A stretch of 38,659 nt of DNA from NCBI GenBank assembly GCA_036001465.1, contig DASYUH010000030.1, forward strand, positions 1 through 38,659, read 5' to 3'. Below, piece by piece: positions 3,801-34,862 of this stretch. A model generated the notes under the pieces. The model did no database searches. It saw only the letters and a program-made list of their open reading frames with translations, and was not told the DNA's origin. The position numbers and the translations under genes were made by a program. The DNA is from Candidatus Polarisedimenticolia bacterium (GTDB lineage: Bacteria > Acidobacteriota > Polarisedimenticolia > Gp22-AA2). Every line of letters begins with the position of its first letter. Position 1 is the stretch's first letter.

Positions 3801-5353
3801 TCGCCGCCTTTCCAGAGTCCGTGCTCGAGTCGAATCTGGCCCCCCTGCCCGGGGCCGCCCCGGTGACCGGCGGGGCTGACGCCGCCGCGGTGACCGGCGG
3901 GCCCGGCGCCGCCGCGGCAGGCGCGGCCGGCGGCGGGCTCTCGTCCGAAGCCGCCCTCGCCGAGATCCTGCGCGGCCGGCTCGAGGCGAAGGGACCGATG
4001 ACCGCCGGCGAGATGGCCTCCTCCTGCGGTCTCCCCGTGGCGGCGATCGACGCCGCGCTTCTGTTCCTGGAAGCCGACGGCTTCGTCCTGCGCGGCCGGT
4101 TCCGGCCGCAGGCAACGGGCATCGAGTGGTGCGCGCGCACCCTCCTGGCGCGCATCCATCGCCTGACGCTGAACCGGCTGCGCAGCGAGATCGAGCCGGT
4201 GAGCGCCGCCGATTTCATGCGCTTCCTGTTCTCCTGGCAGCGTCTGGCTCCCGGCGAGAGCGTAGACGGGCCGGCGGGCCTGGCGACCGTCCTGGAGGGG
4301 CTCGAGGGGTTCGAGGCGCCGGCGGCGGCCTGGGAGGGGGACCTCCTGCCGCCCCGCCTCGAGCGCTACGACCCGGCCTGGCTCGACGCTCTCTGTCTCA
4401 GCGGACGATTCGTCTGGGCCCGTCTCTCTCCGCCTCGGAGCGCCCCGTCCAGGAGCCCGGCCCCCGTGCGCTCCACTCCGATCGCCCTGGTGCAGCGGAC
4501 GCGTCTGGCAGGATGGGCCTCGCTGGCCCGCAGGCCGGAGCCGAATCAGGACCTGCCCCTGGGGTCCGACGCCCGCGCCCTGCTCACTCTGATGTCGGAG
4601 CGCGGCGCCCTGTTCTTCGCGGAGCTGGCCGCCGCTTCGGCGCTGCTGCCGTCTAGGGTCGAGGCCGCGCTGGCGGAGCTGGTGGCGCGGGGCCTGATCA
4701 CCTCCGACGGCTTCACCGGGCTCAGGGCCCTGATCACCCCGTCGAGCCGGCGCCCTTCCCTGGAGGGGCGGAATCGGCGGCGCACGGCGGCGCCGTTCGG
4801 AATGGAGAGCGCGGGACGGTGGACGTGCCTGCCGCGAGGCCCCTGGACCGACGTCCAGCCGCAGCACGCGGCGGACATGGTCGCGCCGGTCCTGCTGCGC
4901 CGCTACGGCGTCGTCTTCCGGCGGCTCCTTGACGCCGAGGGGCCGATGCCGCCGTGGCGCGATCTCCTGAGAGCGTTCTGGAGGCTCGAGGCGCGCGGCG
5001 AGATTCGCGGGGGACGCTTCGTGAGCGGGATGCAGGGGGAACAATTCGCCCTGGCGGAAGCGATCGAGCGCCTGCGCTCCGTGCGCCGCAGCGCGCCGGA
5101 CGGCGTCCTTCTGGGGATCAGCGCGGCCGATCCGCTCAACCTGACCGGAATCGTCCTTCCGGGCGCGCGGGTCTCCCCTCTCGCCTCGGGCCGGATCCTG
5201 TTCCGTGACGGCCTGCCGATCGCCGTCCGGGAGGCGGGGGAGGTCCGGCTGCTCGTGGATCTCGAGCCGGCGGAGGCGTGGCGCGCCAGAAACGCGCTGC
5301 TCAAACGAAGCATCCCGCCGCAACTTCGCGCCTATCTGGGACACACGGCCTAG
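869..5353 (+). CDS. lhr: Lhr family ATP-dependent DNA helicase (full length)
   Basis: This 1494-residue protein matches the large helicase-related (Lhr) family, a 3'-5' superfamily 2 translocase linked to DNA repair; the E. coli protein is of similar length. Visible motifs are Walker A (PTGSGKT, about residue 50), TTPESL, the DEIH box (about 174), GCSAT (about 231), a VFVNTRR motif, LELGID and QRIGRSGH (about 391). The long C-terminal half has the family's winged-helix and AlkZ-like signatures, including [14 protein letters not shown] and [10 protein letters not shown], so it is the long form with the extra C-terminal domain rather than only the Lhr core. A Gly/Ala-rich linker near residues 985-1025, containing a repeated VTGG, separates the two halves. 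ATG at 869 follows the HNH stop directly. The gene is probably cotranscribed with its neighbours. Confidence 0.93.

Positions 5354-14378: not shown

Positions 14379-14389
<11 letters not shown>
13817..14389 (+). CDS. Receiver-like plus DHp two-domain protein lacking a kinase ATPase domain
   Basis: This 190-residue protein has a receiver-like domain (about 10-120) with acidic residues in LVSEDDD and a phospho-acceptor-like Asp in VLILDRD. The conserved lysine of the K-P motif is replaced by Arg (VGRPPQ). It is followed by a helical hairpin whose [10 protein letters not shown] stretch looks like the H-box of a histidine kinase dimerisation domain. No HATPase domain follows; the protein stops after the second helix. 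It may act as a phosphotransfer or docking protein for a kinase encoded elsewhere. TTG 13817 is 4 bases after the deaminase stop. The 3' end overlaps the convergent FHA-sigma54 activator gene by 11 bases. Confidence 0.65.
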
Positions 14390-16244
<1,855 letters not shown>

Positions 16245-16256
16245 GTGAGCCTTAAG

Positions 16257-16294
16257 TATACCCAATCGGATAGCGCGACTATCCATTTGGATAG
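16257..16294. promoter_or_regulatory. Two tandem operator-like palindromes (candidate activator sites)
   Basis: CTATCCATTTGGATAG at 16279-16294 is a perfect 7+2+7 inverted repeat. An imperfect copy, ATACCCAATCGGATAG at 16258-16273, matches it at 12 of 16 positions and lies exactly 21 bases away, two turns of the helix. The pair abuts the activator's start and sits about 150-175 bases upstream of the predicted sigma54 transcription start, the usual range for enhancer sites. Confidence 0.7.
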
Positions 16295-16412
16295 GGATCG
16301 CGCCGCCCCCACCCCCGCGACGTCCATGGTTGAGGGATGGATCCTCTTCGAAACGTCCTCTCATCAAGCGGTTCAATGCATGGCGCCGCGACTGCGATCG
16401 CCGGCGCCGCCG

Positions 16413-16428
16413 TGGCACGGCGCTTGCT
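16413..16428 (+). promoter_or_regulatory. Sigma54 (-24/-12) promoter
   Basis: TGGCACGGCGCTTGCT fits the consensus TGGCAC-N5-TTGC closely, with GG at 16414-16415 and GC at 16426-16427 separated by the required 10 bases. Predicted start is near 16439, giving a leader of about 70 bases before ATG 16510. That leader has two small inverted repeats: CCTCCGGAGG at 16460-16469, and AGTAC/GTACT at 16475-16492. Confidence 0.82.
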
Positions 16429-20666: not shown

Positions 20667-22088
20667 TCAGACGACGCCGGTGATCCCCTCGCCGCCCGGG
20701 CGCGGGGCGATCGGCGCCGGCGTCTTGGTCTCGACGGGCGCGGGCTGGAGCGCCTGGGAGACCTCGAGAATCGCCCCTTCCAGGATGTCGAGCCCTTCCT
20801 CCAGCTGGTCCTCGCTGATCACCAGGGGCATCAGCGTCCGGATGACGTTGCCGTAGGTCCCGGCGCCGATCACGATCAGGCCGCGCTCGTAGCACAGCCT
20901 GGTGATCCGGGTGACCAGCTCCTTCGCCGGCTCCTTGGTGGCCCGGTCCTTCACGAACTCGATGGCGCGCATGGCGCCGGCGCCGCGGGTGTTGCCGACG
21001 AACGGGCACCGCTTCCACAGCCCCTCGAAGCGGTCGCGGACCTTCTCGCCGATCGTCACCGCCTTCGCCACGAGGTTCTGCTTCTCGATGATCTCGATCG
21101 AGGCCAGCGCGGCGGCGCAGGCGACCGGGTTACCGCCGAAGGTCCCCCCCAGGCTCCCCTCCCCCGGCGCGTCCATGATCTCGGCGCGGCCGGTGATCGC
21201 GGCGAGCGGGAGCCCCGAGGCGATCGACTTCGAGGTCACCAGGATGTCCGGCTCGATCCCCCAGTGCTCGCAGGCGAACATCCGGCCGCTCCGGCCGAAG
21301 CCGGTCTGCACCTCGTCGGCGATCACCAGGATGCCGTTCTTGCGGCAGGTGGCGACGAGGGTCGGGTAGTACTCCTGCGGCGGCATGATGAAGCCCCCCT
21401 CCCCCAGGACCGGCTCGACGATCAGGGCCGCCACGGTGGACGGGTCGACGTAGCGCTTGAAGAAGTCCTCGAGAAAGGTGGCGCACTCGATGTTGCATCC
21501 CGGATAGCGCTTCCCCCACGGGCAGCGGTAGCAGTAGGAGAACGGCATGCGGTGGACCTCCGGGGCGTACGGCCCGAAGTGGTCCTTGTACGGGTGCACC
21601 TTGCTGGTGAGCGACATCGCCAGGAGGGTCCGCCCGTGGAACGCGTCCTCGAAGCAGATGACGCCGGACCGGCGCGTGAAGTTGCGCGCCACCTTGACGG
21701 CGTTCTCCACCCCCTCGGCCCCCGAGTTGGCGAAGAAGGTCTTCTTCGGGAACGCCCCCGGCGTGATCCGGTTCATGGTCTCGGCCAGGCGGACGTACGG
21801 CTCGTTCAGCGTGACGTGGAAGCACGAATGGATGTACTTCTCCGCCTGCTGCTGGATCGCCTTGACGACGGAGGCCGGCGCGTGCCCGGCGTTCAGGACG
21901 CCGATGCCGGCGGCGAAATCGATGTAGCGGTTGCCGTCGACGTCCTCCAGCATGGCCCCCTCCCCCCGGGCGATGAACAGCGGCGTCATGTTGTACGGAC
22001 CGCGCGGGACGGCGGCCTGGCGGGCGCGCATCAGCTCCTGCGAGCGCGGCCCGGGGATGGCGGTCTTGATCACGACGCTTTTTTTCAT
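20667..22088 (-). CDS. gabT: Class III aminotransferase, probable 4-aminobutyrate aminotransferase
   Basis: This 473-residue PLP enzyme of the acetylornithine/GABA aminotransferase class has NSGAEGVENAVKVAR, HGRTLL, VIADEVQTGFGRSG, the PLP lysine in LVTSKSIASGLPLAA and GGTFGGNPVACAAA. The closest recalled relatives are GabT enzymes that convert GABA plus 2-oxoglutarate to succinate semialdehyde and glutamate. A cysteine cluster, YCYRCPWGKRYPGCNIEC, sits in the middle and recurs in some GabT-like enzymes. The C-terminus has an extra Pro-rich tail. It lies 10 bases downstream of the aldehyde dehydrogenase gene and with it could form the GABA shunt. Substrate is inferred from context. Confidence 0.88.
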   Translation of the reverse strand: MKKSVVIKTAIPGPRSQELMRARQAAVPRGPYNMTPLFIARGEGAMLEDVDGNRYIDFAAGIGVLNAGHAPASVVKAIQQQAEKYIHSCFHVTLNEPYVRLAETMNRITPGAFPKKTFFANSGAEGVENAVKVARNFTRRSGVICFEDAFHGRTLLAMSLTSKVHPYKDHFGPYAPEVHRMPFSYCYRCPWGKRYPGCNIECATFLEDFFKRYVDPSTVAALIVEPVLGEGGFIMPPQEYYPTLVATCRKNGILVIADEVQTGFGRSGRMFACEHWGIEPDILVTSKSIASGLPLAAITGRAEIMDAPGEGSLGGTFGGNPVACAAALASIEIIEKQNLVAKAVTIGEKVRDRFEGLWKRCPFVGNTRGAGAMRAIEFVKDRATKEPAKELVTRITRLCYERGLIVIGAGTYGNVIRTLMPLVISEDQLEEGLDILEGAILEVSQALQPAPVETKTPAPIAPRPGGEGITGVV

Positions 22089-22098
22089 GCGGCTGTCC

Positions 22099-23580
22099 TC
22101 ATGCGTCCTTCTTCAGATGATCCCAGCGGTACGGGTACCAGTACGACTTCGCCTCAATCTTGAAGTCCAGGTGGACGTGCTTCGGCTCGCGGAAAGCGTC
22201 CAGCCCCTCGATCCCCAGCTCGCGGCCCATTCCGGACATACGCATCCCTCCGAACGGACCGGCGTCATTGTCAGTCAACGGATCGTTGATCCAGAAAGTT
22301 CCCGCGTGAATGTTCTCCATCGCGTACATGGCGTACTCGAGGTTGTTGGTGTAGATGTTGGCTCCCAGCCCGTACTCCGAGTCGTCGGCGAGCTTCACCG
22401 CCTCCTCGATCCCCTTGACCGGCACCAGCGGGGCGATCGGCCCGAACGTCTCGGAGCGCAGGATGCTCATCTTCTGGGTGACGTTCGAGAGCACGGTCGG
22501 CTCGAAGAAGTACCCCTTCTTGAGCTGCGGCGGCCGCCTCCCGCCGCACAGGACCTTCGCCCCCTGCGACACCGCCTCCTCGATCTTCCCCTCGATCTGC
22601 CTGCGGTGCGCCTCGCGGATGAGCGGCCCGCAGTCGATGTCCGGCCCGAGCGGGTTGCCGAGGCGGAGCTTCTTCGTCTGGGCCACGAACTTCTTCGAGA
22701 ACTCCTCGAAGACGCTCTCGAAGACGTAGAAGCGCTCCCCCGAGGTGCAGACCTGCCCCATGTTGAGAAACGCCGCCCAGACCGCCCCCCGGGCCGCGAT
22801 CTCCAGGTCCACGTCGTCGCACACGATGAACGGGTCGTTGCCGCCCAGCTCCAGGTTCAGCTTCTTGAGATGGGGGGCCGCCGCCTGGGCGATCGCCTTG
22901 CCTGTGGCGATGCTCCCGGTGAAGGCGATGAGGGCCACGTCGGGATGGACCACCAGCGGGTCCCCCACCTCGGAGCCGAAGCCGGTGAGGATGTTCACCA
23001 CCCCCTTGCCGAATAGTCCCAGGTCCTCGGCCAGCATGAGGGTGGAGAGCGGCGTCTCGTTGGACGGCTTGATGACCACCGTGTTGCCGGCGGCCAGGGC
23101 CGGCGCCAGCTTCCAGGTCAGAAGGAGCAGCGGGTAGTTCCACGGCACGATGGCCACCACCACACCGTACGGCTCCTTGCGGACGAAGTTGACCTGGTGC
23201 CGGGCCACGGGCGAAAGGACCTTCCCCCCCTGGTCGCGCGCCAGCTCGCCGTAGTAGTCGAAGCAGGCGGCGCACCATTCGACCTCGTCCAGGTTCTCGA
23301 CGAGCGGCTTCCCCCCCTCGCGCGTCAGCTGCCGGGCGACCGCCTTCCCCTTGGCGCGGAGGCCCGCCGCGAACTCATGCATCAGCGCCGCCCGCTCGAG
23401 CCCCGGCATGGATCGCCACTCGCGGAACGCCGCCGCGGCCGACTCGACCGCCAGGTCGGCGTCCCTGGCTCCGGCGCGCGGCACCTCGTCGATGATCTCC
23501 TCGGTGGCCGGGTTGTCGACGGGGAACGTCTTCTTCGTGACGCTCGCGGTCCACCGGCCGTCGATCCACATCCGCTGCAT
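22099..23580 (-). CDS. NAD(P)-dependent aldehyde dehydrogenase (aminobutanal or succinate-semialdehyde type)
   Basis: This 493-residue aldehyde dehydrogenase has every catalytic feature: Asn148 in PWNYP, Glu245 in LELGGNDP and Cys278 in GQVCTSGERF. It would oxidise an aldehyde to an acid in the cytoplasm. With two PatA-like aminotransferases upstream and a GabT-like enzyme downstream, the likely substrates are 4-aminobutanal (PatD role) or succinate semialdehyde (GabD role). Only one such gene is present, so it may serve both steps or the other is elsewhere. ATG 23580 follows AGGAGCAGGCG, and a perfect TATAAT box lies at 23622-23627. The unusually Trp/Tyr-rich C-terminus (SYWYPYRWDHLKKDA) is notable. 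Confidence 0.92.
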   Translation of the reverse strand: MQRMWIDGRWTASVTKKTFPVDNPATEEIIDEVPRAGARDADLAVESAAAAFREWRSMPGLERAALMHEFAAGLRAKGKAVARQLTREGGKPLVENLDEVEWCAACFDYYGELARDQGGKVLSPVARHQVNFVRKEPYGVVVAIVPWNYPLLLLTWKLAPALAAGNTVVIKPSNETPLSTLMLAEDLGLFGKGVVNILTGFGSEVGDPLVVHPDVALIAFTGSIATGKAIAQAAAPHLKKLNLELGGNDPFIVCDDVDLEIAARGAVWAAFLNMGQVCTSGERFYVFESVFEEFSKKFVAQTKKLRLGNPLGPDIDCGPLIREAHRRQIEGKIEEAVSQGAKVLCGGRRPPQLKKGYFFEPTVLSNVTQKMSILRSETFGPIAPLVPVKGIEEAVKLADDSEYGLGANIYTNNLEYAMYAMENIHAGTFWINDPLTDNDAGPFGGMRMSGMGRELGIEGLDAFREPKHVHLDFKIEAKSYWYPYRWDHLKKDA

Positions 23581-23621
23581 CGCCTGCTCCTGCCGTGCCG
23601 TAGGCGTCCCGCGGCGGGCGC

Positions 23622-23627
23622 ATTATA
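23622..23627 (-). promoter_or_regulatory. -10 box of the aldehyde dehydrogenase operon
   Basis: TATAAT on the minus strand matches the consensus exactly and lies about 42 bases before the ATG at 23580. The -35 region (GGGAGT) is poor. Transcription probably runs through gabT and fabI and possibly on to the ABC genes and the lipoprotein. Confidence 0.6.
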
Positions 23628-23692
23628 CCCCCGCGCCTGCGGATACTCCCGCGCCTCCGGCTGCCGGGAGCCTGCCCGAGATGGGGACGCTC

Positions 23693-24964
23693 CTAGGTCT
23701 CGAGGCCTTCGAGCGAGTCGTCGAGGGCCGAGACCAAGCGGTCGAGAAGCTCTTCCGGGATGTTGAGGGGGGGCTCGATCCGGATCACTTCCGGCTTGTT
23801 GAGGGCATAGGCGACCAGGATCCGCTTGCCGTACAGCCTCTCCGCCAGGGCGGCGCCGGTCGATTCGTTCCGCGTCTCGATGCCCAGCAGCAGCCCCTTG
23901 CCGCGCACCTCGGTGATGACCCGGGGGTGCTTCGCCTGGAGGGATTTTAGCCGGGTCAGCAGGGAGGCCCCGAGCCGGGCGGAGCGCTCGCTGAGCCGGT
24001 CGCGCACCGTGATCTCGATCGCCATGGAAGCGGCCGTCGCCGCGAGGGGGTTGTTGCCGAAGGTCGACGAATGCCACATCGGGTTGTCGTGGAACGCGGC
24101 ATAGATCTCGTCCGTGGTCGAGAACGAGCCGCACGGGATCACCCCTCCCGACAGCGCCTTGGCCAGGCAGAGGATGTCCGGCACCACGTTCCAGTGGTTC
24201 ACCCCGAACAGCGCGCCGGTGCGCCCCAGGCCGGTCTGCACCTCGTCGGCGATCAGGAGCACCCCGCGCCGGGAGCAGATCTCCCGCACCTCGGGCCAGA
24301 AGCCGTCGGGCGGCACGATGACGCCCCCCTCCCCCTGCACCGGCTCGAGGATGACGGCGGCGGTGTCCTGGCCTATCGCCTTGCCGATGGCGGCGGCCGA
24401 CCCGTACGGGACGAAGGTGACGTCCTGGAGGAGCGGGCGGAACGGCTCGCGGAACACCGACCGGCCGGTGACCGACAGGCTGCCGAGCGACTTCCCGTGG
24501 AAGGAGTTCTCCGTCGAGACGAAGCCGCTCTTCTTGGTGTGGAGACGGGCCAGCTTCAGCGCCCCTTCGACCGCTTCGGTGCCGCTGTTGCAGAAGAAGG
24601 TCCGCTTCAGCTTCCCGGGCAGGACCTCGGCCAGGCGCCGCCCGGCCTCCGCGGTGATCGGGTTCACCAGGTACTGGCTGTGGAGCGGCATCCGGTCGAG
24701 CTGGTCCTTGACCGCCGCCACGACTTCGGGATGGCGGTGGCCCAGCGAGAAGATGCCGTAGCCGCCGAGGCAGTCGACGTACTCGTCGCCGTAGATGTTG
24801 CGGATGATCGAGCCCTCGCCGCTCCATTCGACCAGGACCCGGTCTCGGTCCCTGTCCTTGGTCTTCGGGAAGCGGCGCAGGTAGGCGTTCCAGCTGTCGA
24901 TTCCCTCCGCGGCGATCGTCTCCTGCTCGTCGCGCGTCAGGGGATGCCCTACCGGAAGCTTCAC
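23693..24964 (-). CDS. PatA-like class III aminotransferase (paralogue)
   Basis: This 423-residue PLP enzyme resembles putrescine aminotransferase: YVDCLGGYGIFSLGHRHP, FFCNSGTEAVEGALKLAR, FHGKSLGSLS, LLIADEVQTGLGRTG, the PLP lysine in LCLAKALSGG and STFGNNPLA. It is clearly a paralogue of the next gene upstream. The differences (for example HSQYLVNPITAEAG in place of SSQELLDPLRG) suggest a different amine donor. The GTG start at 24964 overlaps the upstream stop as GTGA, so translation is coupled. The longer open frame beyond 24964 runs antisense to nothing useful and overlaps the paralogue. Possible substrates are putrescine, cadaverine or another diamine. Confidence 0.88.
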   Translation of the reverse strand: MKLPVGHPLTRDEQETIAAEGIDSWNAYLRRFPKTKDRDRDRVLVEWSGEGSIIRNIYGDEYVDCLGGYGIFSLGHRHPEVVAAVKDQLDRMPLHSQYLVNPITAEAGRRLAEVLPGKLKRTFFCNSGTEAVEGALKLARLHTKKSGFVSTENSFHGKSLGSLSVTGRSVFREPFRPLLQDVTFVPYGSAAAIGKAIGQDTAAVILEPVQGEGGVIVPPDGFWPEVREICSRRGVLLIADEVQTGLGRTGALFGVNHWNVVPDILCLAKALSGGVIPCGSFSTTDEIYAAFHDNPMWHSSTFGNNPLAATAASMAIEITVRDRLSERSARLGASLLTRLKSLQAKHPRVITEVRGKGLLLGIETRNESTGAALAERLYGKRILVAYALNKPEVIRIEPPLNIPEELLDRLVSALDDSLEGLET

Positions 24965-26568
24965 ACCAGGCTCCGCAGGGTCTCGTCGAGATGACCCAGG
25001 ACCTCGTCGATGAGCTTCTTCGGGATCGACAGGGCCGGCTCGAACCGGAGCGTCTTGGCGTTCAGGAGCGTGCCGGCGACCAGCACCCCCCGCCGGAAGA
25101 GTCCGGAGGCGACGGCATAGCCGATGTCGGTCGTGTCGAACTCCACCCCGATCAGGAGCCCCTTGCCCCGCACGTCCACCACATGCTCGGGAAAGCGCGA
25201 CTGGACGTCGCGCAGCCCCGCCAGGAAATACTCCCCCCCCTCCGCCGCCTGGCCGGGCAGATCCTCGGACAGGGTGACGTTGATGGCCGCGATGCCGGCG
25301 GCGCAGGCCAGGGGGTTGCCGCCGAAGGTGGAGGAGTGCAGGAACGGGTTCTTCTCCAGCACCTTCCAGATCTCCGGGGTCGAGATGAACGCCGACAACG
25401 GCATGACTCCGCCGCCGAGGGCCTTCCCCAGGCACATGATGTCCGGGATGACGTCCCAGTGGTCGACGCCGAACAGCTTGCCGGTGCGGCCCAGGCCGGT
25501 CTGCACCTCGTCGGCGATCAACAGGACGTCGTACTCGTCGCAGATCTCGCGCAGGCGCGGCCAGTAGTCGTCGGGCGGCACGATCGCCCCCGCCTCCCCC
25601 TGCACCGGCTCGGCGACCACGGCGGCGATGTCCAGCCCCACGTCCCGGGCCTTCTTCAGCTGCCACTCGACCTCGTCGGCATCGCCGAACTCGACGAAGT
25701 AGACGTCCTGGAGGAGGGGCTCGAAGGCCACCCGGTAATCGGCCTTCCCCATGAGGGACAGCGAGCCGTACGACTTGCCGTGGAACCCGCGGATCGTGGA
25801 GATGAAGCCGGACTTTTCGGTGTACAGGCGGGCCAGCTTCATGGCCCCCTCCACCGCGTCGGTGCCGTTGTTGATGAAGAAGCACTTCTGCAGATTTCCG
25901 GGGGCGATCTCCCCCAGGATCTCGGCCAGCGCCCCGCGCAGCGGGTCGAGAAGCTCCTGGCTCGAGAGCGGCATCCGATCGAGCTGGCGACGCACCGCCT
26001 CGATGATCTTGGGATGGCGGATGCCGGCGCTGTAGATCCCGAACCCGCCGAGGCAGTCGATGTAGCGCCGCCCCATGATGTCCTCGATGTAGCTCCCCTC
26101 CCCGGTCCACTCGATGGCGGCGTACTGCTCCGCCTCCGCCACCGACTTGCGGTACTCGAGGAACCCGGAGTTGAAATAGGCGTCGAACGACTTGACCGTC
26201 TCCTTGACCACGCGCTTCTTCCGGGACATCGGCAGCCGGTCGGCCCGGGCGATGATGTCCAGCCAGTGCTGCGACTCCTTGATGACCTTCTCCGGGCTCA
26301 TCCGCCTGCCGCCGCGCCGCGCCCGTGCCTTGGCCGCCGCCTTGAGGCTCTTGCGGACCGCGTTCCGCTTCTCCTGGGGAGCGGCCGGCAGGGCGTCGGC
26401 CGTCCTCGGGGCCGCCACCCGCACCGACGCGGACGGGGCGGGGTCGCCCCTCTTCGTGCCGTTCGACACCGCCTTGCCGGCGGCGGCGAGGCGGTGGCTG
26501 GACAGGGAGACGATGTTGCCGTCCCCGCCGTTCCGGGCTCTGACGTCGCGCTTCAATGTGTTCTTCAT
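24961..26568 (-). CDS. patA: Putrescine aminotransferase with long basic N-terminal extension
   Basis: This 535-residue class III aminotransferase shows close similarity, from memory, to E. coli putrescine aminotransferase along most of its length: GFLEYRKSV, IDCLGGFGIY, SQELLDPLRG, FHGKSYGSLS, DEVQTGLGRTGK, the PLP lysine in CLGKALGGGVMP, TFGGNPLACAAG and VLVAGTLLNAKTLR. It would transfer an amino group from putrescine to 2-oxoglutarate, giving 4-aminobutanal. About 90 extra N-terminal residues are basic and Ala-rich (VRKSLKAAAKARARRGGRRM). ATG 26568 has an AGAGG site. An internal ATG at 26301 would remove most of the extension but has a weaker site. It begins the polyamine block. Confidence 0.9.
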   Translation of the reverse strand: MKNTLKRDVRARNGGDGNIVSLSSHRLAAAGKAVSNGTKRGDPAPSASVRVAAPRTADALPAAPQEKRNAVRKSLKAAAKARARRGGRRMSPEKVIKESQHWLDIIARADRLPMSRKKRVVKETVKSFDAYFNSGFLEYRKSVAEAEQYAAIEWTGEGSYIEDIMGRRYIDCLGGFGIYSAGIRHPKIIEAVRRQLDRMPLSSQELLDPLRGALAEILGEIAPGNLQKCFFINNGTDAVEGAMKLARLYTEKSGFISTIRGFHGKSYGSLSLMGKADYRVAFEPLLQDVYFVEFGDADEVEWQLKKARDVGLDIAAVVAEPVQGEAGAIVPPDDYWPRLREICDEYDVLLIADEVQTGLGRTGKLFGVDHWDVIPDIMCLGKALGGGVMPLSAFISTPEIWKVLEKNPFLHSSTFGGNPLACAAGIAAINVTLSEDLPGQAAEGGEYFLAGLRDVQSRFPEHVVDVRGKGLLIGVEFDTTDIGYAVASGLFRRGVLVAGTLLNAKTLRFEPALSIPKKLIDEVLGHLDETLRSLV

Positions 26569-27018: not shown

Positions 27019-29253
27019 ATGACCAATAACCCGGATGCCGTGGGTCCACTCGTCCGGGCCCTCAAGCAGCTGGCCACCGCGACCAAGACCATCTCCTTCT
27101 ATCCCGCCCAGCACCCGACCGTGTCGACGGCGCTGGACAAGGCCTCGGTGTTTCTCAAGGAGGCCCTCACGGACCTCGAGACGCTCACCGTCGGCGTGGC
27201 CGACGCCGCCTTTCTCGTCGATCGGACTGTCCTGGAGGAGGGGGATCGTGTCCTCGGCGGATTCGCCTCGTACCTGAGCCGCCGGAACGTCAGCGGGCTG
27301 AGCTTCCGGTCCCCGGTCGAGCCGGAGGCCCTCAAGGGGTTTCTCGAAGTCATCGCCCTCGATCCGGGGACGCTGCGCTCGCGCGGCGGACCGATGAAGA
27401 GCCTGGAGGAGCGCCGGCTCGGCGGCATTTCGGTCGTCGAGTTCGACGCGGCGGAGGCCCTCCGGTCGGCCCGCACGGGGACCGGCGCGGAGGCGGGGGC
27501 GGAGAAGACCCCGAGCGTCTCCTGGAGCGATCTGCTGGCCCGGTTCCTGGCCGGGCAGAGCTCCGTCCCTCCCGGCGGCGAGCACCTGATCCGGAGAGTG
27601 GCGGGGGATGCCAGGGCGGCCTGGGAGCTCATGGCCTCCCTGCAGAAAATCTGCGCCGAGGCCGGGCCGAACCGGTCGGGCATCCTGACCGGGGCGCTGA
27701 AACGGATCGCCGCGGAAGTCGGAACCGCCGAGCCGGAAGCGTTGTCGTCCCTGGCCCAGAACCTCGCGGCCGCCCTCATGGCGCTCGACCCCCAGGGGCG
27801 CAAGGAGATCCTCGGGACGAGCATCCCGGTTGCCGGCACCGACGTGGACCTGGCCGGCGCCATCAGGGCCAGCATCCCGGAAGACAACCTGGGGGAGCTG
27901 ATCGTCTCGATGGTGCAGTCCGAGGGGCGAGTGAACGCCCGCCTCGGGAGCGTCATCCGCAAGGTCCTCATCGACCGGGGCGTGAACGACCAGCAGAAGA
28001 CGAGCGTGCTCGAGGCGATCCGATCGGCGCGCGGGGTCGACAAGCCCCCGGCCGACGTGTGGGACTCCGTCGAGGACCTCCTGAAGGAATCGCAGGACGA
28101 CTGGATTTCCCGCGAATACAAGGGACTCCTGGAGATGATCGGCGCCAGCGCGCCGCCTCTCGAGGAGGGGCTGAAGCGGGAGCTCCTGGCGCTCCCCGAG
28201 GTGGTCGAGGCCATGACCCCCGAGGGGATCAGGCGCCGGGCCTGGCTCCTGTTCGGCGACCTGGTGGGTGTGGACCATGAGCCGGCCCGCCGGTGGGTCG
28301 CCCTGGACCAGATCGAGAAGCGTGCCTCAGGGCTCACGCCCGACTGGTTCGCCGAGTGCAGCGGCGTCGCCGAGGCGGTCCTGGCCATCCTCGCGGCGGG
28401 GACCTCGTCCCCGCCGCACGTCCGGGAGGCGGCTCAGAAGGCGATCCGGGCCACCGCCGATGCGCTGGTGCGCTGCTACCGCAAGTCGTTCCACACCCTG
28501 AAGCCCGAGCACCACACCGCCCTGGCCGCGGCGTTCCAGGCAATGGGCGAGCACTGCGTCGAGAGTCTCCTCCTGGGGCTCGCCGAGGAGGAGGACTGGG
28601 AAATCCGCAAGCCGTTCATCGGATTCCTCGCGTCGCGGCAGAAGGGGGCGGTCCCGGCGCTCGTCCGGCGACTGACCGACCCCTCCTGGTACCTGGTCAG
28701 GAACATCCTGCTCATCCTGGGGGAGATCGCCGACCCGGCGACGATCCCGGCCATCGCCCCGTGCCTCAAGCACGCCGAGCCGCGGGTCCGCCGGGATGCG
28801 GTCGCGGCCCTGGGAAAGATCGGCGGGCCGCGCGCCTTCGCCCTCCTGAGGGAGTGCCTCGACGACCCGGAGGTGCACGAGGTCGCGCTGCGTTCCCTCG
28901 CCGCCATCGACCGGCGCCGCACCATCGGCGCCTTCCTGGAGATGACCGAGCGCGTGGACCTGTTCGGGCGCGGCAACCAGCGGCTGAAGGAGGCGATCTC
29001 CACCCTCGGCGCCCTCGGCGGCAACGAGTCGGTGCCGCGGCTGCGCGCCATCCTGATGCGCGGGATGTGGCTGCCCCCTTGGGCCGGCGACACCGTGCGC
29101 GTCGCCGCGGCGCGGGCCCTCGAGAAGATCGGCACGACCACCGCCCTGAACGCCATCCAGGAAGGTTCGCGGCTGTGGCGGGGCCCCGTGGCAGGGACCT
29201 GCGCCGAGATCATCGGCCAGCGTTCGATGGGCGGCTTGACGTCGCGCAACTGA
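27019..29253 (+). CDS. HEAT-repeat protein with shared N-terminal module
   Basis: This 744-residue protein has no signal peptide. Residues about 8-115 form a module (ISFYPAQHPTVSTALDKA, then FLVDRTVL, FASYLSRRNVSGLSF, LKGFLEVI) that recurs in the next gene product. A long helical middle follows. The C-terminal part, about 500-735, contains HEAT-type repeats such as VPALVRRLTDPSWYLVRNILLILGEI and VRRDAVAALGKIGG, which make a protein-binding solenoid. No enzyme motif is seen. It is probably a scaffold or adaptor partner of the HD-GYP-like protein, whose gene starts 10 bases after this stop. Confidence 0.8.
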   Translation: MTNNPDAVGPLVRALKQLATATKTISFYPAQHPTVSTALDKASVFLKEALTDLETLTVGVADAAFLVDRTVLEEGDRVLGGFASYLSRRNVSGLSFRSPVEPEALKGFLEVIALDPGTLRSRGGPMKSLEERRLGGISVVEFDAAEALRSARTGTGAEAGAEKTPSVSWSDLLARFLAGQSSVPPGGEHLIRRVAGDARAAWELMASLQKICAEAGPNRSGILTGALKRIAAEVGTAEPEALSSLAQNLAAALMALDPQGRKEILGTSIPVAGTDVDLAGAIRASIPEDNLGELIVSMVQSEGRVNARLGSVIRKVLIDRGVNDQQKTSVLEAIRSARGVDKPPADVWDSVEDLLKESQDDWISREYKGLLEMIGASAPPLEEGLKRELLALPEVVEAMTPEGIRRRAWLLFGDLVGVDHEPARRWVALDQIEKRASGLTPDWFAECSGVAEAVLAILAAGTSSPPHVREAAQKAIRATADALVRCYRKSFHTLKPEHHTALAAAFQAMGEHCVESLLLGLAEEEDWEIRKPFIGFLASRQKGAVPALVRRLTDPSWYLVRNILLILGEIADPATIPAIAPCLKHAEPRVRRDAVAALGKIGGPRAFALLRECLDDPEVHEVALRSLAAIDRRRTIGAFLEMTERVDLFGRGNQRLKEAISTLGALGGNESVPRLRAILMRGMWLPPWAGDTVRVAAARALEKIGTTTALNAIQEGSRLWRGPVAGTCAEIIGQRSMGGLTSRN

Positions 29254-29263
29254 GGAGACCGAG

Positions 29264-30697
29264 ATGCCCGAGCCCGAGAAAACGCCCGCACCGGTTCTGG
29301 AGGGGCACGTCCAGGCGCTGTCGGCCGCGGCGGTGCGGGCCCTGCACGCCGCCGTCAACCAGCGCAAGATGTATCCCCCCGAGCACCCGATCGCGTCCCG
29401 GGCCCTCCGGACCCTGGCGCTCTACCTGGAGCGGCTGCTCGCCCTGATGGAGGACTGGCGCCTCGCCCTGGTCGGGGAGAAGCTCATGGCGGGTGGCCAG
29501 CCGCTCGACGAGGGGACGGACAGCCTCGCGCCCTTCGTCGAGACCCTGAAGTCGCGGGCCATCGAGACCATCGTGTTCAAGCGCGGCCTGGACCTCGAGC
29601 AGCTGCGCCGGTTCCTGTCGCTCATGATCCTGGACGCCAAGTGGTTCGCCGGCGCCTCCCTGCAGGACATGATCGCCAAGGAAGGGATCCGCTCGATCGA
29701 GGCGGGCCGGCTCGTGCTCGCCGACCCGGTCGAGGCGGACCGGAGCCGGGCCCTCATCGACGAGACCGGCCCGGAGCTGGCCGAGGCCTATGACAACGCC
29801 CTGACCTTCATCGAAGAGGCGGTCGGCGCTCTGCAGGATGGACGCCGCATCAGCATGGCGGACGCCGAGTCGTTCGTGCGCCTGGTCGCCTCGCAGATGC
29901 AGCAGGATCGATCGCCGTTCCTGATCCTGACGACCCTCAAGGCGCACCACGCCTACACCTTCACCCACATCATCAACGTCTGCCTTCTGACCGTGGTGCA
30001 GATCGAGGCGATGGGCGGGGACGCCACCGCGCTGCGGGAGTTCGGCCTGGCCTCGATGATGCACGACATCGGCAAGACCGTCCTGCCGAAGGAGCTTTTG
30101 AGCAAGCCGGGCAAGCTGACACCCGAGGAGTTCGGCCTCATTCAGAGGCATCCCCAGGACGGCGTGCACATCCTGCGCGAGACCCCCGGGGTCCCCGACC
30201 TGGCGCTCCTCGTGGCGTTCGAGCACCACATGCGGTACAACCACGGCGGGTATCCGCGCCCGCGACACCCCCGCCCGCTCCATCCGTGCAGCCTGATGAC
30301 CAACCTGGCCGACACCTACGATGCCATGCGCAGCCGCCGAGCGTACCAGGAGGAGTTCCCGCCCGAGAAGGTGGCCGCGGTGATCAGCGACAAGGCAGGG
30401 ACCGACTATCACCCGCGGCTGGCGCAGGCCTTCCTGCAGATCATGGGGGCCTACCCGCCGGGGACGCGCGTGCGCCTGGACACCGGGGAGGAGGGGGTCG
30501 TCGTCCGGTCGAACCCGTCCAACCCCTACCGCCCGGTCGTGCGCATGCTGCGGGACAGCACCGGGGGGCTCATCCGGCGCCTCGAAATCGTCGATCTGAT
30601 GGAGAAGGAGCAGGTGGGGGGCCACTTCTCCCGCAACATCCTGTCCTCGATCAGGACGCCGCCCCCGGCGAAGCCCGCCGGCCCGCAGGGTTCCTGA
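29264..30697 (+). CDS. HD-GYP domain protein (possible c-di-GMP phosphodiesterase) with shared N-terminal module
   Basis: This 477-residue protein has an N-terminal module (about 12-130) like that of the upstream HEAT protein, with MYPPEHPIASRAL and a following hydrophobic pattern. An HD-GYP domain (about 225-400) has MHDIGK near 266, LPKELLSKPGKLTPEE, and then EHHMRYNHGGYP. In standard HD-GYP enzymes the last motif is HHExxDGxGYP; here Glu is Met and DG is HG, while GYP is intact. It is followed by LADTYDAMRSRRAY. The family hydrolyses c-di-GMP or cGAMP; activity here is uncertain. The GGAG of the ribosome site overlaps the upstream TGA. It converges with the response regulator gene. Confidence 0.87.
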   Translation: MPEPEKTPAPVLEGHVQALSAAAVRALHAAVNQRKMYPPEHPIASRALRTLALYLERLLALMEDWRLALVGEKLMAGGQPLDEGTDSLAPFVETLKSRAIETIVFKRGLDLEQLRRFLSLMILDAKWFAGASLQDMIAKEGIRSIEAGRLVLADPVEADRSRALIDETGPELAEAYDNALTFIEEAVGALQDGRRISMADAESFVRLVASQMQQDRSPFLILTTLKAHHAYTFTHIINVCLLTVVQIEAMGGDATALREFGLASMMHDIGKTVLPKELLSKPGKLTPEEFGLIQRHPQDGVHILRETPGVPDLALLVAFEHHMRYNHGGYPRPRHPRPLHPCSLMTNLADTYDAMRSRRAYQEEFPPEKVAAVISDKAGTDYHPRLAQAFLQIMGAYPPGTRVRLDTGEEGVVVRSNPSNPYRPVVRMLRDSTGGLIRRLEIVDLMEKEQVGGHFSRNILSSIRTPPPAKPAGPQGS

Positions 30698-30729: not shown

Positions 30730-31428
30730 CTAGCGCAGGTCGCCGCGCAGCCTGTCGGGCCGGGACGACGCGCTGGCGATTCCTCGTTCGATGGCGTAAC
30801 GCGTCAGGCCGGCGACATTGTGGATCTCGAGCTTATCCATGATGCGCGTCCGGTGGTTCTCGATCGTCTTCACGGAGAGCCCCAGCAACCCGGCGATCTC
30901 CTTGTTGGTGTGCCCCTCGGCGATGAGCTGCAGGATTTCCCGCTCGCGCGGCGTCAGGACGTCGACCATCCCCGCATGCGTCCCGGCTTGCGGCCCCTTC
31001 AGGTATCCCTCGACCACCCGGTTCGAGATCGACGGGTGCAGGTAGGTGCCGCCCCCCTCCACCGCGTGGATCGCCTCGACCAGGTCGGACGAGACCGATT
31101 CCTTGAGCAGATAACCCTTCGCCCCCGCCTTGAGCAGGGAGTAGACGTACTCTTCGCTGCTGTGCATCGTCAGGGCGACGACCCGGATGGAGGGGTTGTC
31201 CTTGACGATGCGGGCCGTCGCTTCGAGCCCGTTCATTTTCGGCATGCTGACGTCCATGATCACCACGTCGGGCGCGAGACACACGGCCTTCTTGACCGCT
31301 TCGCGGCCGTCGGCGGCCTCCCCGACGACTTCCATGTCGGGCTCGCCCTCCAGTATGGCCCTGAGTCCCTGGCGCACAATCGTGTGATCGTCGGCCACCA
31401 GGATGCGGGTTCGCTTGCCAGGCGCCAT
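30730..31428 (-). CDS. NarL/FixJ-family response regulator (orphan)
   Basis: This 232-residue regulator has a receiver domain (Asp13-Asp14, phospho-acceptor Asp59 in VVIMDVSMPKMNG, Thr in ALTMHSS, Lys in GYLLKES) and a LuxR-type helix-turn-helix (LTPREREILQLIAEGHTNKEIAGLLGLS split by a turn, then VKTIENHR). All phosphorylation-site residues are present. No histidine kinase gene is adjacent, so the partner is encoded elsewhere. ATG 31428 follows GGGAGGGCGCCC. A promoter with perfect TTGACA lies at 31454-31483. The gene is downstream of wecB on the same strand but has its own promoter. Confidence 0.95.
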   Translation of the reverse strand: MAPGKRTRILVADDHTIVRQGLRAILEGEPDMEVVGEAADGREAVKKAVCLAPDVVIMDVSMPKMNGLEATARIVKDNPSIRVVALTMHSSEEYVYSLLKAGAKGYLLKESVSSDLVEAIHAVEGGGTYLHPSISNRVVEGYLKGPQAGTHAGMVDVLTPREREILQLIAEGHTNKEIAGLLGLSVKTIENHRTRIMDKLEIHNVAGLTRYAIERGIASASSRPDRLRGDLR

Positions 31429-31540: not shown

Positions 31541-31594
31541 GCCCGGCCTGCCGCCCCCGCCCGGCCTGCCGCCCCCGCCAGGCCTAGCGCCCCG
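31541..31594. repeat. 18-bp tandem repeat at the 3' end of wecB
   Basis: Two identical units of GCCCGGCCTGCCGCCCCC (31541-31558, 31559-31576) and a diverged third (31577-31594) cover the wecB stop codon at 31584-31586. Confidence 0.75.
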
Positions 31595-32816
31595 CGCCGA
31601 GACGCGCGAAGACCGCGACGATGCGGGCCGCCGCCTTGCCGTCCCACATCGGGATCGACCGGGGGCGCGGCGGAGGTGCTCTCAGAATCTGGCGGGCCGC
31701 GGCGACGATTCTCGCCGTGTCGCTTCCCACCAGGCGGTTCGTCCCGCGGCTGAGGGTGATCGGACGCTCCGTGTTCTCCCGCAGCGTCAGGCAGGGGACG
31801 CCGAGGATCGAGGCCTCTTCCTGGATCCCACCCGAATCGGTCAGGATCATCCGCGCCCGCTTCTGCAGGTGCAGGAAGTCGAGATATCCCAGCGGCTCGA
31901 CGAGACGCAGGCCGCCGCCCCCCACCTCGCCGCCGTGCGCCGCGATCATCTTGAGCGTCCGCGGATGGACTGGGAACAGGATCGGGATCTCCAGGGCGAT
32001 GGTATCGAGCGCCGCGACGATGCGCTGCAACGCCTGGGAATCGTCCACGTTCGAGGGACGGTGCAGGGTCAGCAACGCGAACGGAGGGGCGATCCCGAGC
32101 CGCGCCATCACGTCGGACGAATCGGCGCGCGCCAGGAAGCGGCGCAGCGTGTCGATCATCACGTTCCCGACCCGGTGGATCTTGCGCTTCGGGACCCCTT
32201 CGGCGGCCAGGTTCCGATCGGCGTCCGGACTGGTGGTGAAGAGCAGGTCGGAGAGGGCGTCGGTCACGATACGGTTGACCTCTTCCGGCATCGTCCGATC
32301 GCCCGAGCGCAGGCCCGCCTCGACGTGCGCGACCCTGATAGGAGGCGTCACCTTGGCGGCGACCACCGAGCACGCCAGCGTCGAGTTGACGTCTCCGACC
32401 ACCACGACCCAGTCGGGGCGCTCCTCTTCGATGACTTTCTCGAATGCCTCCATGATGCGCGCCGTCTGCGCCGCGTGCGTGCCCGACCGGACGCCCAGGT
32501 GGATGTCGGGCGGCGGGATCTCCAGGTCCTCGAAAAACACGTCCGACATCTGTTCGTCGTAGTGCTGGCCGGTGTGCACCAGCCGGGGGTCGAACCGATC
32601 GGGGCGCGCCCGGAACGCGCGCAACAGGGGGGCGACCTTCATGAAGTTCGGACGGGCGCCGGCGACGAGCAGGACGCGGAGGGGCTGCGCGGGCGCGCGG
32701 CGAGCCTCCGCAGCGCCCGCGGGCGCCCGGCGCGCGGCCCCAGGGCGCGCGGCCGATCGGGCCCTCGCAGAGCCCCTTCCCGTTTTCGCAGGTCCGCTTC
32801 GGGCCCCGCTTGCCAT
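31584..32816 (-). CDS. wecB: UDP-N-acetylglucosamine 2-epimerase (non-hydrolysing)
   Basis: This 410-residue protein interconverts UDP-GlcNAc and UDP-ManNAc for surface polysaccharide synthesis. Family motifs are ARPNFMKVAPL, TGQHYDEQMSD, GDVNSTLA, HVEAGLRSGDRTMPEEVNR, LTLHRPSNVD, PVHPRT, LTDSGGIQEEA and LRENTERP, in the normal order. ATG 32816 is the first start in the frame upstream of the domain and adds about 39 Arg/Ala-rich residues; its ribosome site is poor, so the true start could be nearer the domain. A promoter about 620 bases upstream and a 96-bp tandem repeat occupy the leader. The DegT aminotransferase next door suggests a modified amino sugar pathway. Confidence 0.93.
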   Translation of the reverse strand: MASGARSGPAKTGRGSARARSAARPGAARRAPAGAAEARRAPAQPLRVLLVAGARPNFMKVAPLLRAFRARPDRFDPRLVHTGQHYDEQMSDVFFEDLEIPPPDIHLGVRSGTHAAQTARIMEAFEKVIEEERPDWVVVVGDVNSTLACSVVAAKVTPPIRVAHVEAGLRSGDRTMPEEVNRIVTDALSDLLFTTSPDADRNLAAEGVPKRKIHRVGNVMIDTLRRFLARADSSDVMARLGIAPPFALLTLHRPSNVDDSQALQRIVAALDTIALEIPILFPVHPRTLKMIAAHGGEVGGGGLRLVEPLGYLDFLHLQKRARMILTDSGGIQEEASILGVPCLTLRENTERPITLSRGTNRLVGSDTARIVAAARQILRAPPPRPRSIPMWDGKAAARIVAVFARLGAGR

Positions 32817-32971
32817 CGAGGAGACCCCATACCGGTCGCGCCGGCGCCGGAGCGCGCCGGGGCGCCGGCAGATTGTGGTGGAGCGGACCAGGCAAGTCAA
32901 CGACTTGTGCAGGGCGTTCCTCCGAAGGCTGCGAGCACTGATGTCGGGGGCAGGGGGGCGCCGGATGGCTT

Positions 32972-33183
32972 GATGGAAAACGTCCGGGCTGGCGGGATGA
33001 AGCGGGCGGGGCCCACACACGATGGCCTCGGCGAAGTCGGTCGCCGGCGGACCCGGCAGCCGCTGCCGATGGAAAACGTCCGGGCTGGCGGGATGAAGCG
33101 AGCGGGGCCCGCACCCGATGGCCCCGGCGAAGTCGGTCCCCCGCGGACCCGGCAGCCCCAGCCGATGGAAAACGTCCGGGCTG
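32972..33183. repeat. 96-bp tandem repeat, about 2.2 copies
   Basis: GATGGAAAACGTCCGGGCT recurs at 32972, 33068 and 33164, exactly 96 bases apart. The two full units are nearly identical and the third ends after about 20 bases. It lies in the predicted 5' leader of wecB. Confidence 0.9.
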
Positions 33184-33253
33184 AGCGGCAGGGAGTGTGC
33201 CGAAACCGAAGCGATTCCCGGCGCCGATGAGGACGGCGAGCTGGGGGGCGAGC

Positions 33254-33313
33254 TTGGCGGCAAGAGCGGCGCCGAGCGCGACGGCAAGAGCGACGCCAAG
33301 AGCGACGGCGAGG
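33254..33313. repeat. Degenerate 12-bp tandem repeat, five units
   Basis: Units resemble GCGACGGCAAGA; the last three (33278, 33290, 33302) are the best conserved. It is immediately upstream (in wecB orientation) of the 96-bp repeat. Confidence 0.65.
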
Positions 33314-33444
33314 ATGAATTCGAGGCCCATGAGCGCGGACACCCCCCGGAGCGAGACCACGTCGCGCACGTCAACATGGCAAACGGGAAACGTTCAGCGC
33401 TCGAGCGGCGGGGGCGGACGAGACGTGCCGATCAAGCAAGGTGT

Positions 33445-33473
33445 AATTTAGGAGAATATCGTGGAGAAGTCAA
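33445..33473 (-). promoter_or_regulatory. Sigma70-type promoter toward wecB
   Basis: On the minus strand TTGACT (33468-33473) and TAAATT (33445-33450) are separated by 17 bases in a locally AT-rich patch. The predicted start near 33438 would give wecB a leader of about 620 bases containing both repeats. Confidence 0.55.
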
Positions 33474-33494
33474 TCACTTTCTGAAGGAATTTTT

Positions 33495-34862
33495 CTAGGG
33501 CCGCGCGAGCGCCTTGGCAAGAGCCGCGCACACCCGGTCCACCTGGTCGTCGGTCATCTCCGGATGGATCGGCAGCGACAGGACCTCGCGGGCTGCCCGC
33601 TCGGCCTCGGGGAAGGCCCCCTCGCGCAGGCCCATCCACGCGTAGGCCGGCTGCAGGTGCAGAGGGATCGGGTAGTGGATGCCGGTCTCGATCCCCTGCT
33701 CGAGGAGAGCGGCGCGCACCCGGTCGCGAAGCGAAGCGGCGCCTGGGCGAGCGTCACTTGGGCGAGCGTCACCTGGAGACAACCGCACCGTATAAAGATG
33801 ATAGGCGTGGGTGCCCCACGGCTTCTCGACCGGGAGGCGAAGCGGCGCCCCGGCCTGCCGGTGGTCTCCCCCGCCGCTCGAGGGCGCGGCCAGCCCCATC
33901 TCGACGAGCCGCGCACCGTAGCGTGCGGCCAGGGCGCGCCGGCGCTCGTTCCGGGCGGCGAGCCGTTTCAGCTTGACCCGCAGGATCGCGGCCTGCAAGG
34001 CGTCGAGCCGGCCGTTGTATCCCTCCTCCGCGTGGACGTATTTCTCCGACTGGCCGTGATCGCGCAGCCGCCTGACTCTGTCCGCGATGTCGGCCCGCGC
34101 GGAGGTGACCAGGCCCCCCTCGCCGCACGCCCCCAGGTTCTTGGACGGATAGAAGGAGAAACAGCCCGCGTCGCCGAGAGAGCCGGCCGCGCGCCCCCCA
34201 CCGCCGCCACGGCCGGCATAGAGAGCTCCATGCGCCTGGCAGGCGTCCTCGACGACCGAGATGCCCCGCCGGCGGGCGCAATCGAGAATCGGGTCCATGT
34301 CCGCCACCTGGCCGAACAGGTGGATCGGCACGATGGCCCGCGTCCTGCGGGTGAGCGCCCCTTCGAGCCGGGCGGGATCGAGCGTCAGGGATGCGGGATC
34401 GACGTCGACGAAGACCGGCCGGCCCCCCGCCTGGCTGATGGCCTCGGTCGTGCCGATGAAGGTCAGAGGCGTGGTGATGACCTCGGGCCGCTCGCCTGCG
34501 GCGTCCCGGCCGGACCCCAACGCGCCGCCGACGGAGCCGCCTCCAGGCGCGCCGCCGGCGGGACCGCCTCCAGGCGCGCCGCCGTGCCCGAGGCCCGCGG
34601 CCATCAGCGCGAAGCGCAGAGCGTCGGTGCCGCTGCTCACCGCCACCGCGTGCGCCACGCCGCAGAAGGAGGCGAACTCGCGCTCCAGCCCCTCGATCTC
34701 CGGGCCGCCGATGTAGCGCCCGGACGCGAGGACGCGCGTGACGGCGGCGTCGATCTCCGGCTTCAGCCCGGCATATTCCGCCGCCGGATCGACCGCCTGG
34801 ATCCGCGCTTTCTGATCGCTCTTGCCCGCGGCCCCGCCGGCGGGAATTCGCGACGATGCCAT
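33495..34862 (-). CDS. DegT/DnrJ/EryC1/StrS family sugar aminotransferase
   Basis: This 455-residue PLP enzyme of the sugar aminotransferase family installs an amino group on a keto-sugar nucleotide. Seen are GRYIGGPEIEGLEREFA, AVSSGTDAL, TTPLTFIGTTEAI, VEDACQAHGA, the PLP lysine Lys241 in FYPSKNLGACGEGG, EGYNGRLDALQAAIL, and TGIHYPIPLH. A Gly-rich insert of about 25 residues (GGAPGGGPAGGAPGGG and on) sits after AAGLG, between the start of the cofactor fold and the TTPLTF strand, and is not typical of the family. ATG 34862 follows GGAGGTGGGCTTCG. Together with WecB it points to a surface glycan containing amino sugars. Confidence 0.92.
   Translation of the reverse strand: MASSRIPAGGAAGKSDQKARIQAVDPAAEYAGLKPEIDAAVTRVLASGRYIGGPEIEGLEREFASFCGVAHAVAVSSGTDALRFALMAAGLGHGGAPGGGPAGGAPGGGSVGGALGSGRDAAGERPEVITTPLTFIGTTEAISQAGGRPVFVDVDPASLTLDPARLEGALTRRTRAIVPIHLFGQVADMDPILDCARRRGISVVEDACQAHGALYAGRGGGGGRAAGSLGDAGCFSFYPSKNLGACGEGGLVTSARADIADRVRRLRDHGQSEKYVHAEEGYNGRLDALQAAILRVKLKRLAARNERRRALAARYGARLVEMGLAAPSSGGGDHRQAGAPLRLPVEKPWGTHAYHLYTVRLSPGDARPSDARPGAASLRDRVRAALLEQGIETGIHYPIPLHLQPAYAWMGLREGAFPEAERAAREVLSLPIHPEMTDDQVDRVCAALAKALARP

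Follow-up and report, generated by a model that had tools for sequence, protein, structure and literature searches.

The window, by which we mean the whole 38,659-nucleotide stretch of DNA that was analysed, carries two adjacent genes on the + strand whose products begin alike. Gene A (27019..29253) encodes a 744-aa protein with HEAT repeats (Pfam HEAT_2, 1.5e-20), and gene B (29264..30697) encodes a 477-aa HD-GYP-like protein (Pfam HD_5, 6e-15); both open reading frames lie where the earlier note had placed them. The shared N-terminal module, delimited by alignment, profiles and structural models, occupies residues 6-155 of A (27034..27483, + strand), where YPAQHP sits in a turn between two long helices, and residues 15-164 of B (29306..29755, + strand), where the motif reads YPPEHP. 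The HEAT repeats lie in the C-terminal part of A. HEAT_2 scores 73.7 bits there against a cut-off of 27.7, with its best stretch at residues 545-627 (28651..28899, + strand), and the HEAT_PBS and HEAT profiles likewise exceed their cut-offs. In B, the Pfam HD and HD_5 matches together mark out an HD-GYP-like domain at residues 232-385 (29957..30418, + strand), and domain comparison places an altered HHExxDGxGYP signature, HHMRYNHGGYP, at residues 321-331 (30224..30256, + strand).

A GAGGAG sequence (29252..29257, + strand) overlaps the stop codon of A (29251-29253) and ends six bases before the start of B. It resembles a ribosome-binding site and presumably serves B, so that the junction looks like that of translationally coupled genes. 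The pair is flanked by a class-III aminotransferase gene (24961-26568, - strand) and by a gene for a LuxR-type response regulator (30730-31428), as judged from the open reading frame list and Pfam. Both neighbors point the opposite way, and A and B therefore seem to form a separate unit of two genes. A promoter/terminator scan found nothing promoter-like ahead of A on the + strand, a result that is not informative in this GC-rich genome. Elsewhere in the window, the - strand of 20667-26568 encodes class-III aminotransferases at 20667-22088 and at 24961-26568 with an aldehyde dehydrogenase between them (22099-23580), and the frame at 23693-26110, judged by eye, resembles a further aminotransferase; this stretch looks like an amine catabolism cluster. 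Other genes encode a large helicase-related (Lhr-type) protein of 1494 aa (869-5353, + strand), an FHA-GAF-sigma54 activator protein (14379-16418, - strand), and a UDP-GlcNAc 2-epimerase and a DegT-type aminotransferase of sugar-nucleotide metabolism (31584-34862, - strand).

Several lines of sequence evidence indicate that the N-terminal modules of A and B are homologous. BLASTP aligns the two proteins without gaps over 90 residues at 27% identity (E 3e-8), and the Smith-Waterman score of their N-terminal parts is 110, a value reached by 0/2000 shuffles (mean 30.0, sd 5.2). Profiles built from 18 A-type and 17 B-type proteins, separated by architecture, match each other over 145 columns with a probability of 99.7 and an E-value of 1.3e-26, which is not fully independent because some sequences filed under one type had been retrieved with the module of the other. 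The YPxxHP tyrosine is invariant in 84 aligned modules (alignment A8), and the histidine and second proline are conserved in at least 90% of them. In the window's own genome, the A8 profile matches the modules of A and B only. The earlier note had proposed a module shared by both products and had listed a YPxxHP motif, an FLV/KLM strand and an LxxFL helix as its marks; the homology is borne out, and these marks fall in register within the one ungapped alignment. The domain is larger than the roughly 110 residues suggested there, about 150 in the models, and in B it begins some 14 residues into the protein.

The predicted structures agree with this homology. AlphaFold2 models were built from separate alignments, one of 63 A-type sequences (mean pLDDT 93.5, pTM 0.86) and one of 52 B-type sequences (mean pLDDT 91.1, pTM 0.84), and were compared by the order and bounds of their elements. 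Both contain the same eleven elements in identical order, namely two long helices, a strand pair, a helix, a strand, three helices, a strand and a helix, and the start and end of every element differ by at most 3 residues between the models. In both, YPxxHP forms the turn between the two long helices. The two N-terminal regions are thus not predicted to have unrelated folds, the outcome that the earlier note had named as refuting its proposal. Foldseek returned no PDB fold match at E<=0.001 for either model; in its weak rows, GAF-containing proteins such as PelD recur at E >=0.5 and TM-scores of about 0.2. The best VIA results, which cannot exclude relatives in families outside the VIA list, were Z 5.8 for the A model (rmsd 2.0 over 43 residues, to the helix pair of a designed protein) and Z 3.9 for the B model (rmsd 3.2 over 67 residues). 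A viral Foldseek set, searched with the A model, gave no convincing relative. Such weak matches of predicted structures are no proof that the fold would be new.

The module was described as unnamed, and no family in Pfam or NCBIfam covers it. The window modules of A and B match no Pfam family. When all 63 A-type and 52 B-type modules were compared with Pfam at E<=0.01, stray single members alone gave matches (E 0.002-0.009), none of them to a GAF or PAS model. In NCBIfam, the whole A and B proteins gave weak matches, all of them below every cut-off and outside the module. The best match among PDB sequences was to the designed protein Octarellin V.1 (34-38 residues aligned, E 0.0003 and 0.002); we regard this as a chance resemblance in a helix-strand motif rather than as kinship. 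In the literature library searched, HD-GYP and HEAT repeats appeared together only in Xanthomonas genome papers and a jumbo-phage survey, no work was found joining HD-GYP with HEAT-like proteins, Acidobacteriota or Omnitrophota, and none of the titles listed dealt with the A/B pair.

The module and the pair recur well beyond this genome. The nearest named records with the module come from Acidobacteria metagenome genomes, some labelled gp22, and from one Candidatus Omnitrophica genome. The B-type module was matched in 18/60 relatives of the window genome, and in the two phyla sampled the module is found in 109/297 Acidobacteriota genomes at least 80% complete and in 39/117 Omnitrophota genomes. 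Loci for counting pairs were picked by hand from hit lists and are not a random sample. In the first set, 57/58 B-type genes are immediately preceded by an A-type gene of the same orientation, the remaining one adjoining masked sequence so that it cannot be judged. The upstream genes comprise 43 with module and HEAT repeats, 7 with the module only and 7 with HEAT repeats only, several of the partial ones being split or cut by a contig end. The gap from the A stop codon to the start of the B module has a median of 10 nt (range -19 to 185) in these 57 pairs. A later batch of 20 stretches, chosen largely for listing single hits, contributed another 7 B-type genes. An A gene lies upstream of 5 of them; two of these five A genes are truncated by a contig end, and one of the two is a weak HEAT match (E 5e-3). 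This brings the total to 62 of the 65 B-type genes.

Pairing is not absolute, since several lineages have module-HEAT genes without B and since one module-HD-GYP gene (L210:3857-5865, - strand) has a Trans_reg_C-FHA protein rather than a module-HEAT protein encoded upstream. A 221-residue frame at L213:4350-5012 (- strand) likewise lacks A upstream; it holds the module and the tail of an HD-GYP domain without its core and is either a remnant or a stand-alone module. No recurrent gene family beyond the A/B core was seen across classes in the neighborhoods examined. Lineage-limited neighbors, identified by eye, include, in one lineage, an upstream nucleoside-transport/thymidine-phosphorylase group that runs on the opposite strand, and in another a histidine kinase adjoining module-HEAT genes, with HisKA confirmed for L127. 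Many open reading frames common to these neighborhoods are shadow frames, and an exceptionally long open frame that encloses one module-HD match of the Omnitrophota search proved to be an artefact that reads through masked bases. The A/B pair is a conserved genetic unit, and its recurrence in distant bacteria suggests a signalling partnership not yet described, not a coincidence.

A tree of 133 modules, from which weak or short module matches and the rows of five loci (near copies, truncated or masked) were removed, parts the modules of paired A genes from those of B with a single change. Two histidine-kinase modules nest inside B, and the branch dividing A from B has an SH-aLRT of only 83 in a quick search. 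The distance matrices of A and B correlate over 44 pairs (r 0.79), a value reached by 0/2000 permutations. For four loci with two tandem pairs (the fifth such locus, L148, was left out of the test), the true A/B pairing ranks first of the 16 possible. These data fit one old duplication after which A and B were inherited together, the pair at times duplicating as a whole. Co-divergence is no proof of contact between A and B, since neighboring genes share descent anyway.

The HD-GYP-like domain of B presents a mixture of retained and altered features. It matches HD_5 with 55.8 bits (cut-off 27.2), and the closest solved protein is PmGH (PDB 4mcw; E 9e-20), which is likewise of HD-GYP type. In PmGH numbering, B has all seven metal ligands, H189, H221, D222, H250, H276, H277 and D305, and also shares K225, D308 and R314. 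At other positions the two differ: B has H for D183, Y for E185, Q for K317 and HHM..NH for HHE..DG, and it comes with a HEAT partner gene. PmGH has a GAF domain (PMC4159591) where B has its N-terminal unnamed module. The signature HHExxDGxGYP is not matched by B, which is therefore filed as an HD-GYP-like variant rather than a canonical member. The earlier note had called the HHE and DG motifs altered; this is real, and it leaves the seven metal ligands that were checked around the motif intact. Among 57 B-type domains, one truncated protein having been dropped, all seven ligands are kept in 52, window B included. The HHE glutamate is absent from every one (L in 35, R in 9, M in 8, V in 3 and I in 2). 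By comparison, the five other HD-GYP proteins of the window genome that were aligned, from a total of seven HD_5 matches including B, all carry it. Its loss thus marks the entire subfamily and is not in itself a sign of a dead enzyme, and an argument for a dead HD-GYP domain from the HHE change alone was rejected: the change is universal in those examined and the ligands are kept.

Published mutational data for PmGH bear on the other changes (PMC4159591). With alanine in place of a metal ligand, activity is essentially lost, whereas the E185 and D305 replacements only reduce it; mutations of D183, which PmGH needs, and of K225 and D308 act like ligand mutations; and mutants of GYP, R314 and K317 do not lose much activity. 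The position of D183 is still D in 37/57 B-type domains. The HDxGK lysine is replaced in three relatives, L137 (T), L144 (Y) and L152 (L), and the L137 gene also lacks two ligand histidines; some pairs may therefore carry a dead enzyme. Judged from its residues, window B itself could be either a pseudo-enzyme or an enzyme that is altered yet active. GGDEF matches in the window genome fill 20 rows and fall in 18 open frames, and c-di-GMP is therefore probably made in the cell.

The module is also joined to other signalling domains. Four proteins from Omnitrophota and Acidobacteriota (L187, L188, L191 and L162) have the order GGDEF-AAA_16-module-HEAT. Pfam detects HEAT_2 in L187, L191 and L162, and a local HEAT profile matches all four, L188 included. 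They have the module in common with A and B and differ in carrying a diguanylate cyclase domain on a single long polypeptide; L162 (582-4859, - strand) has two tandem modules ahead of its HEAT repeats. Ten Omnitrophota frames (L192, L193, L198-L200, L222-L225 and L227) are module-PAS-HisKA-HATPase kinases, with the module N-terminal as in A and B and a histidine kinase as output. At L221 (4754-6031, + strand) the module is fused to a YjeF_N domain, and for L190 and L196 the same Pfam scans gave no clear domain besides the module. A itself resembles HEAT-repeat proteins (Pfam PF13646, PF03130 and PF02985) in its C-terminal part, and is set apart from ordinary ones by the module ahead and by its fixed HD-GYP-like partner gene. 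Since the module is common to cyclase, phosphodiesterase-like, kinase and HEAT proteins, the best reading is of a domain for signal input or association that has not been described before.

The explanation we favor, at roughly even odds, is that A and B form a one-operon unit whose members associate through the module, the HEAT partner controlling or placing a metal-dependent cyclic-dinucleotide phosphodiesterase. This reading builds on module homology, the predicted order of elements, adjacency, joint inheritance and intact metal ligands; the presence of the module in histidine kinases and GGDEF proteins and the GGDEF domains of the window genome also speak for it. The two products of one small operon would act as a unit, each starting with the same small alpha/beta association or input module. 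Through this module A, a putative scaffold without a recognised catalytic domain, would associate with B, and would then control B or determine where it acts on its presumed cyclic-dinucleotide substrate. Pairing of the two proteins seems the most likely mechanism, and near-constant adjacency, co-divergence and the single A/B split in the module tree back it indirectly. A common ligand or a third partner for A and B is possible.

In a stronger form of the last idea, the foremost alternative if a doubtful one, the module would sense or dock a third partner or small ligand, and A and B would read the signal side by side without contact. The module does occur at the N terminus of histidine kinases and in GGDEF proteins, and several lineages have module-HEAT genes on their own, as a general input domain would lead one to expect. 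Against this, A and B keep an almost invariable order and adjacency, which asks for more than a common signal, and no ligand pocket was identified. The absence of D183 from window B counts against the active-phosphodiesterase view and, with the universal loss of the HHE glutamate and the three lysine replacements, speaks for a pseudo-enzyme that binds nucleotide or protein without hydrolysis, the pair then being a regulator or receptor. This is unlikely in view of the 52/57 domains with a full set of ligands, which drift would not preserve, and of the D183 aspartate that most relatives keep; mutants of the GYP motif of PmGH, moreover, stay active (PMC4159591).

Two further alternatives concern the module itself. 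GAF and PAS domains have the same kind of partners. It could be a far-diverged domain of that sort, novel in sequence only, and the recurrence of GAF-containing proteins such as PelD in the weak Foldseek rows leans that way; the poor scores of those rows, and the lack of a Pfam GAF or PAS match at E<=0.01 in either set of modules, make this improbable. The window copies are only 27% identical, as chance or the convergence of two helical N-termini might produce, but this account is refuted by the shuffles and the profile-profile comparison, to which the common element order of the models adds.

Beyond the pair in the window, a broader and decidedly tentative proposal, less likely than not, is that the module founds an undescribed signalling-domain family with a fold not in the PDB. 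It would make near-obligate pairs of a HEAT scaffold with a non-canonical HD-GYP enzyme (HH[LMRVI] for HHE), the enzyme acting on a cyclic dinucleotide under its partner's control. Since GGDEF and histidine-kinase proteins use the same domain, a single module would then cover the synthesis of c-di-GMP, the breakdown of a cyclic dinucleotide and phosphorelay output in both Acidobacteriota and Omnitrophota. What is understood of HD-GYP, GGDEF and histidine-kinase proteins comes largely from their input domains, and here an input or association domain common to two environmental phyla is nameless in Pfam and NCBIfam and has no close PDB match. The module defines a two-gene HD-GYP-like system with a HEAT scaffold partner, in which one can ask directly whether a dedicated scaffold governs an HD-GYP-type enzyme, with a duplicated domain as the means of recognition. 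Through the module, many unannotated proteins also gain a common part.
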